Shown in pieces: positions 21,343 through 21,883 of a DNA stretch of 22,411 bases. A program made the translations under genes and the position numbers. The notes below the pieces were generated by a model that was given only the letters and a program-made list of their open reading frames with translations, had not been told where the DNA came from and made no database searches. The stretch comes from a virus, in IMG/VR virus record IMGVR_UViG_3300001686_000030, positions 1 through 22,411 of that record. One strand, given 5' to 3'. Positions within the stretch are counted from its first letter, which is position 1, and the number at the start of each line of letters is the position of its first letter.

Positions 21343-21492
21343 TCACCACCCACAGGTGTGCGTGGGGCGCTGTGGCCTCATCACGAGATCGAGGTATCCG
21401 TCTCTCACTTCGATGGTGTCAATGACGACCTCCACGTGGAGCGCCTGCCCACAGATGGGACAGAACACTCGTACTGATCCTAGGGATGCCAT
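21343..21492 (-). CDS. Zinc-ribbon-like protein, 49 aa
   Basis: I start it at ATG 21492, which overlaps the RHH gene stop (TGATG); a longer frame upstream lacks coding features. The protein begins MASLGSVRVFCPICGQALHV, with a C-x2-C-G pair, and ends in THTCGW, so a C-x2-C...C site is seen. A beta hairpin (VVIDTIEVRDGYLDLV) lies between. Likely metal-binding; role unknown. Confidence 0.78.
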   Translation of the reverse strand: MASLGSVRVFCPICGQALHVEVVIDTIEVRDGYLDLVMRPQRPTHTCGW

Positions 21493-21671
21493 CAGAACTC
21501 CATCTTCGTGGTGACCGTGACAGTCAGAGACTTGTTCTGCATCACCAGTCCAGCCTTCACGGCACGGTTCAACCATTCGTTCATCGACAAGCCCTTCTCT
21601 TTCGCGCGGGCCCGGACCTGGTCGGCCATCTCGGGTTCCATCCGCATCAGGAACGCCTCGCTCTTACTCAT
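21492..21671 (-). CDS. Ribbon-helix-helix protein, 59 aa
   Basis: I start it at ATG 21671 (MSKSEAFLMRMEPEM). A strand AFLMRM, a helix PEMADQVRARAKEKGL and a helix SMNEWLNRAVKAGLV fit an Arc/MetJ-type RHH fold, and the C-terminus has a beta segment (KSLTVTVTTKMEF). The start has little ribosome binding site. The 14-bp repeats at 21682-21714 lie 11 bases upstream, as expected for an autoregulatory operator. This is a good candidate for a phage repressor or antirepressor-type regulator, by inference. Confidence 0.82.
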   Translation of the reverse strand: MSKSEAFLMRMEPEMADQVRARAKEKGLSMNEWLNRAVKAGLVMQNKSLTVTVTTKMEF

Positions 21672-21681
21672 ACCCACACGC

Positions 21682-21714
21682 TACACCTATGTGTATCGGA
21701 TACAGGTATGTGTA
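21682..21714. promoter_or_regulatory. Tandem 14-bp operator upstream of the RHH gene
   Basis: Two near-identical 14-mers, TACACCTATGTGTA (21682-21695) and TACAGGTATGTGTA (21701-21714), start 19 bp apart. Each is a palindrome-like half-site pair (TACAC/GTGTA). The two together also form a larger imperfect inverted repeat from about CGCTACAC to GTGTAGCG. The spacing of nearly two helical turns fits cooperative dimers. It lies just before the 59-aa RHH start. Confidence 0.7.
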
Positions 21715-21718
21715 GCGT

Positions 21719-21883
21719 CTAGGGCGTGTCCCTAGAGACCCGACGCTTCTCCCGCACCACCAACAGACGCAGGTACTGCGACACATCAAGAGACCCCCGA
21801 GCCTCCTCCACAAACGCCCGCTGCTCCGACGACAACTTCGTCGCCACCAGATGCGTATAGATCCTCGGCCCCTGATTAGCCAC
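21719..21883 (-). CDS. Possible RHH protein, 54 aa
   Basis: A GTG at 21883 overlaps the upstream gene's end and the frame ends in TAG at 21719. The protein begins MANQGPRIYTHLVATKLSSE and continues QRAFVEEARGSLDVSQYLRL and VVREKRRVSRDTP. A strand-like start, an acidic helix (SSEQRAFVEEARG) and a helix (DVSQYLRLLVVREK) agree with an RHH or MobC-like pattern. Its codons and overlap support it. It lies immediately upstream of the tandem operator, so it may share the regulation of the next gene. Confidence in the fold is moderate. Confidence 0.7.
   Translation of the reverse strand: MANQGPRIYTHLVATKLSSEQRAFVEEARGSLDVSQYLRLLVVREKRRVSRDTP

Follow-up and report, generated by a model that had tools for sequence, protein, structure and literature searches.

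A predicted Arc-like RHH autorepressor and its putative tandem 14-bp operators near the end of a phage record

The window analysed here is the whole IMG/VR virus record IMGVR_UViG_3300001686_000030, 22,411 nt in length and possibly a genome fragment, whose minus-strand reading corresponds to a phage left arm and structural genes. A first-pass annotation had described two 14-mers repeated at a 19-bp period between two small RHH-type genes. Both 14-mers were found, and the features of the locus are as follows:

21343-21492, minus strand: 49-aa zinc-ribbon-like ORF, starting at the 59-aa gene's stop codon.
21492-21671, minus strand: 59-aa Arc-like RHH gene (RHH2), with start codon ATG 21671; the proposed autorepressor.
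21673-21723, no strand assigned: overall inverted repeat around both sites, with 25-nt arms (80%), foldable as RNA too.
21678-21683, minus strand: predicted -10 hexamer TAGCGT (TANNNT), 6 nt before ATG 21671 and overlapping the proximal site by 2 bp.
21682-21695, minus strand: proximal putative operator TACACCTATGTGTA (TACACATAGGTGTA on the gene strand), centred at about -17.5 from the predicted start point.
21701-21714, minus strand: distal putative operator TACAGGTATGTGTA (TACACATACCTGTA on the gene strand), centred at about -36.5 from the predicted start point.
21719-21883, minus strand: 54-aa RHH-like gene (RHH1), with start codon GTG 21883; the upstream neighbour of the 59-aa gene.
21876-21965, minus strand: hydrophobic ORF of 29 aa (MDWWLW...) that shares 8 nt with the start (GTG) of the 54-aa gene.

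Both 14-mers lie inside the 47-bp gap that separates the stop of the 54-aa ORF from the ATG of the 59-aa ORF, and each of them is a near-palindrome (6/7 and 5/7 pairs). Together they display four TACA/TGTA half-sites (TACAC, GTGTA, TACAG and GTGTA) whose starts are 9, 10 and 9 bp apart, a repetition of about one helical turn on the predicted promoter, as in Arc-like RHH repressors. The search for the 14-mer elsewhere in the genome, which had been proposed with the initial description, showed that both exact sequences are unique in the 22,411-nt record, and the tandem-operator DNA patterns returned no match in viral contigs. Two palindromic 14-mers with 12/14 or more identities at a distance of 14-40 bp make up a single pair in the window; such a pair appeared in 5 of 200 dinucleotide-shuffled versions of the full window and in 0 of 5000 shuffled versions of the surrounding 200 nt. 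Scored for repeats in general, the 80 nt upstream of the 59-aa gene exceeded all 100 shuffles, while the exact 5-mer count taken by itself gave p = 0.25 for the gap because one half-site is TACAG. The overall dyad (21673-21723) was dropped as evidence, being not unusual, as 145 of 200 shuffles hold one.

The assignment of the 59-aa gene to the RHH class was borne out by family searches. Its product scored 26.5 bits against Pfam Arc PF03869 (curated cut-off 20.4) and 23.7 bits against HicB (cut-off 21.0), a match to VapB was weak and sub-threshold, and the best PDB sequence matches were Arc and Arc variants (phmmer, best E 0.035). The alignment with P22 Arc is gapless from the first Met and covers Arc residues 4-43. 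Arc reads DNA through Q9, N11 and R13; the 59-aa protein carries A6, L8 and R10, so that only the reading-strand Arg is retained (R10 aligned with Arc R13) and the other two reading residues differ. The AF2 model is of low confidence (pLDDT 63), with helices at 13-26 and 30-39 and the strand unassigned in the monomer; its PDB fold neighbours, headed by CopG and Arc, are RHH proteins in nearly every case, with a best Z of 4.6 and none significant by E-value. Single-protein scans for relatives of the 59-aa protein returned none, tblastn gave nothing below E 0.3 in phages and nothing in plasmids, and a relative with the same gene was not found in viral, phage, plasmid or genome collections.

For the 54-aa gene the earlier label of RHH-like is supported by the phage profile and, tentatively, by the predicted fold, and finds no curated family to attach to. 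A profile built from left-arm phage RHH genes recovered the protein with E 3e-19, the protein itself being one of the seeds, together with about 50 further matches. Single-sequence phmmer found relatives among the left-arm proteins of Curtobacterium phage Kithara (L005; L numbers denote loci of the comparison set described below) and of L033, with E 3e-4 and 4e-4 respectively; single-protein scans for the 54-aa and ParB-like genes gave no relatives. The protein reached no curated Pfam or NCBIfam cut-off and had no convincing PHROG match. The AF2 model (pLDDT 86) shows helices at 19-29 and 34-52, and its fold neighbours are RHH antitoxins, MazE and TCP at Z of about 4 (ParD2 4.4, ParD1 4.3, TCP 4.2); the family profile against the PDB gave MazE9 and NikA as top matches, with E only about 0.2. 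Since its kinship rests on the phage profile and on single-sequence matches, we name the protein RHH-like and assign it to no named family; it probably belongs to a divergent family of short RHH proteins that related phages carry at the same position.

Around these two genes, the 29-aa hydrophobic ORF and the 54-aa gene are likely to be translationally coupled, and the 49-aa ORF would be the first gene behind the 59-aa gene in the same predicted transcript. Zinc-ribbon matches of the 49-aa ORF were weak and all sub-threshold, and it had no match to defence or antitoxin-system families. A third small RHH-like ORF (MATVTIQVPDDVIARIETL...) lies in the same gene array (20489-20632, minus strand), with no operator-like repeat upstream and no family match. 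A 129-aa ORF (16092-16481, minus strand) stands directly before the terminase, at a position where an RHH gene (about 125-140 aa) is annotated in named relatives; an NCBIfam search with it gave no match. At the record end, about 400 nt (22010-22411) without a convincing gene resemble the leaders of about 580-1350 nt ahead of gene 1 in named relatives, and the first transcript may begin there.

The nearest named relatives of the window phage are Arthrobacter, Microbacterium and Curtobacterium phages. Against these named phages its terminase has 40-44% identity, and against a group of uncultured phages 52-59%; a search with it among genomes returned distant relatives only and no clear host. Named phages have a ParB-like gene at a distance of 3-6 kb from their left end; the corresponding gene of the window starts 4.1 kb from the record end, which would place the tandem-site locus near the left end of the genome.

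The E. coli-type promoter scan found no promoter at the locus. In M. tuberculosis, TANNNT is centred 7-12 bp upstream in 73% of primary start sites, TANNNT promoters lack a conserved -35 element and one gene in four is leaderless (PMC3898074). The -10 motif was defined according to that study, an actinobacterial rule assumed from the phage relatives of the window that may not be the host's. Within the 6-kb left arm of the window, no ATG start other than that of the 59-aa gene has TANNNT at a distance of 5-8 nt, and one GTG start has it too. The absence of a recognisable -35 is as expected for TANNNT promoters. With transcription starting at ATG 21671, the site centres fall over the spacer and the -35 region, which would be the classical position for steric repression.

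As no relative of the 59-aa gene was close enough for DNA alignment, positions were compared instead. The comparison set of 159 non-redundant sequences took in the window, loci retrieved through their terminase and ten named phages, with gene starts in relatives set by rule. Profiles identified 65 RHH genes in 47 loci, 62 of them with usable upstream DNA. TANNNT occurred 5-8 nt before the start in 29 of 62 RHH genes vs 26 of 373 control ATG starts (Fisher p 1e-13), and across the 62 RHH starts the distance from the end of the motif to the start codon was 6, 7 or 8 nt in 11, 14 and 5 cases and very rarely any other. This spacing is characteristic of leaderless promoters, and it was found in 15 of 19 repeat-bearing RHH genes vs 14 of 43 others (p 0.001). 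Among other candidate gene starts in relatives, about 7% (for example in L105, L119, L131, L030 and L155) also have TANNNT 5-8 nt before ATG, which suggests that leaderless genes are general in the phage lineage.

The RHH1-gap-RHH2 tandem was present in nine loci, window included, with a gap of 41-56 bp in six of them, again including the window. Palindromic or repeated half-sites, differing in sequence, were observed in five of the nine tandem gaps; the repeats are GTGATATCAC in L149 (= L017), TTGTC-N6-GACAA twice at a 19-bp period equal to that of the window in L123, TTCGCA/TGCGAA in L033 and GTAGAC/GTCTAC in L131. Seven gaps tested without the window gave a combined p of 1.3e-6, four of them being individually significant. 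The gaps of L030, L128 and L119 showed no significant repeats by 5-mer count, so the tandem-gap layout is not universal. Arrays also stand before the start of RHH genes that are the only ones detected in their locus, namely TGGTAACAGCTGCTACCATT at 20 bp in L113, GTGTGCC at 10 bp in L155 and TTGTACACACAGT in L141, and L164, which has a second RHH gene 1 kb downstream, carries TGATATCA at 10 bp. Repeat phasing of about 10 bp was seen in L155, L164, L099 and L113.

Over the 80 nt upstream, repeat scores with p<=0.05 were obtained for 20 of 62 RHH genes vs 39 of 300 other genes (Fisher p 5e-4), and RHH genes scored higher overall (Mann-Whitney p 1.5e-5); as the control genes themselves exceed the nominal rate, shuffles alone would overstate the case. 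A search with the RHH alignment for further RHH-operator pairs returned only three, all already found. By rough gene calls, the RHH gene of relatives heads a rightward operon facing leftward genes, and the equivalent upstream side of the window is cut off by the record end. What the relatives share is the architecture, not the 14-mer itself.

A separate class of palindromes was masked before the final repeat statistics. The 13-bp palindrome TTTCAGNCTGAAA has five copies in the window (1591-1603, 8713-8725, 12663-12675, 17336-17348 and 22123-22135; expected 0.02), two of them immediately ahead of gene starts (ATG 8699 and ATG 17325); a third lies in the leader upstream of the RHH genes, and the copies look stoperator-like. 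L105, L096, L119, L128, L131, L030, L107, L155, L124 and others each have their own dispersed palindrome of similar make, often at gene junctions, such as GTTCACTnAGTGAAC, present 16 times in L105, GTCCTGTnnACAGGAC, present 17 times in L096, and GTTTAGTnACTAAAC in L128/L131. They differ from the putative RHH operators. At the RHH1 stop of L016/L128, L131 and L030, the palindromes GTTYAGTSACTRAAC had been considered as RHH operators; they were dropped as belonging to this genome-wide class. The dispersed palindromes are possibly more novel than the tandem-site locus.

The DNA-reading strands of the RHH proteins were then set against their putative operators. The strand KQINLRLP goes with TGGTAACA in L099 and L113, R-[DE]-R with TGTAC in L105, L119 and L141, R-H with GTGTGCC in L119b and L155, and VV-S-R types with GTATAC in L124, L128, L131 and others; an exception is TGATATCA, which occurs in both L149 and L164 despite unlike strands. 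Operator resemblance correlated with that of the RHH beta-strand (Mantel r 0.089, p 0.002), a small effect partly confounded by descent. This matching favours binding by the RHH protein encoded directly downstream of the array, hence by the 59-aa protein in the window.

The autoregulatory circuit put forward in the first-pass annotation gains support from the Arc match, from the location of the sites on a predicted leaderless promoter and from the analogous repeats in relatives. On these grounds we propose, with a probability of roughly 0.7, that the 59-aa protein is an Arc-like autorepressor that would occlude its own leaderless promoter via the two tandem 14-bp palindromes. Binding would probably involve two to four dimers, presumably acting cooperatively, on one face of the DNA with half-sites one turn apart. 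The bound protein would cover the -35 to -10 region and block RNA polymerase at the promoter starting at ATG 21671, thus limiting its own synthesis and the read-through into the small genes behind. The 54-aa protein would be a separate, positionally conserved product translated from the preceding transcript.

The location of the sites, which lie 4 bp behind the 54-aa gene, and the RHH tandem pairs of nine loci would also agree with a two-protein circuit in which the 59-aa gene is under the control of the 54-aa protein, or of a heteromer of both proteins, bound at the tandem sites. We regard such an arrangement as unlikely, because the two RHH genes of L131 each have their own, different repeats directly upstream, because L113, L155 and L141 keep their repeats with a single detected RHH gene and because no operator-like repeat precedes the 54-aa gene. 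A role of the dyad as an RNA hairpin, either masking the start region or attenuating read-through into the 59-aa gene, is suggested by the z values of the window dyad (-2.69 and -3.08); however, any palindromic operator folds, the repeat-bearing L119, L141 and L045 have z of about 0, so that a hairpin is not general, the phasing near 10 bp in relatives is helical, and the predicted start at ATG would leave the hairpin outside the mRNA of that promoter, which makes this role improbable.

A function of the sites in partition, of the RHH ParB/omega type, or in packaging near the genome end was considered as well, given that the RHH proteins of pSM19035 bind promoter-overlapping parS repeats (PMC9499535), that the ParB-like gene is about 3.2 kb away and that the locus apparently lies close to the left end of the phage genome. 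This function is very improbable, as no ParA was found among the families searched (covering part of the genes of an incomplete genome), the sites are only two and lie on the predicted core promoter of the 59-aa gene, and the best-resolved relatives have their arrays directly before RHH starts. That the 59-aa gene encodes the antitoxin of a toxin-antitoxin pair is hardly credible, since searches with the 49-aa and 91-aa genes that follow it gave no toxin or defence family, even though RHH antitoxins autoregulate, toxin-antitoxin mRNAs are often leaderless (PMC3898074) and the 59-aa protein has the weak VapB match.

Beyond the autorepressor reading of the window, the relatives point tentatively to a wider pattern, which we consider possible rather than probable. 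One conserved place, the head of the rightward structural-gene arm, would hold one or two RHH repressors whose reading strands and operators diversify together between phages, like an immunity or incompatibility switch, with each leaderless promoter covered by its own operators and the window pair as one allele. The divergent RHH-headed operon of relatives could be a natural place for such a switch. The window alone adds one more probable phage RHH autorepressor of known type; the diverging set of pairs is more interesting, as dozens of phages have short RHH genes beside legible, phage-specific putative operators. These natural pairs could reveal the recognition code of the RHH beta-strand, for which few solved complexes exist, and the set would show how these phages time or segregate the structural operon.

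Among known systems, Arc of the Salmonella phage P22 (PF03869) is likewise a phage-coded RHH protein of about 53 aa with tandem half-sites on a promoter, and the window differs, besides the reading residues, in its operator, its second RHH-like partner gene and its predicted leaderless promoter. CopG of pMV158, a top fold neighbour of the low-confidence 59-aa model (Z 4.6), and omega of pSM19035 are RHH repressors on short promoter-overlapping repeats, but they serve in plasmid copy-number control and partition, and omega uses arrays of 7-10 heptads (PMC9499535). In E. coli relO, four hexads form two tandem palindromes that receive two RelB dimers on one face for autoregulation, RelB needs the toxin RelE as co-repressor and no gap between half-sites is tolerated (PMC2812701); the window also has four short half-sites in two tandem palindromes, with a 5-bp gap and with no toxin found. 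Pseudomonas AmrZ is an RHH autorepressor that binds as a dimer of dimers to two half-sites with an A/T-rich linker (PMC3325190), and it differs in being a larger, cellular virulence regulator with GGC half-sites. By analogy, the autorepression of relO and AmrZ appears to offer the nearest worked-out parallels to the circuit proposed here.
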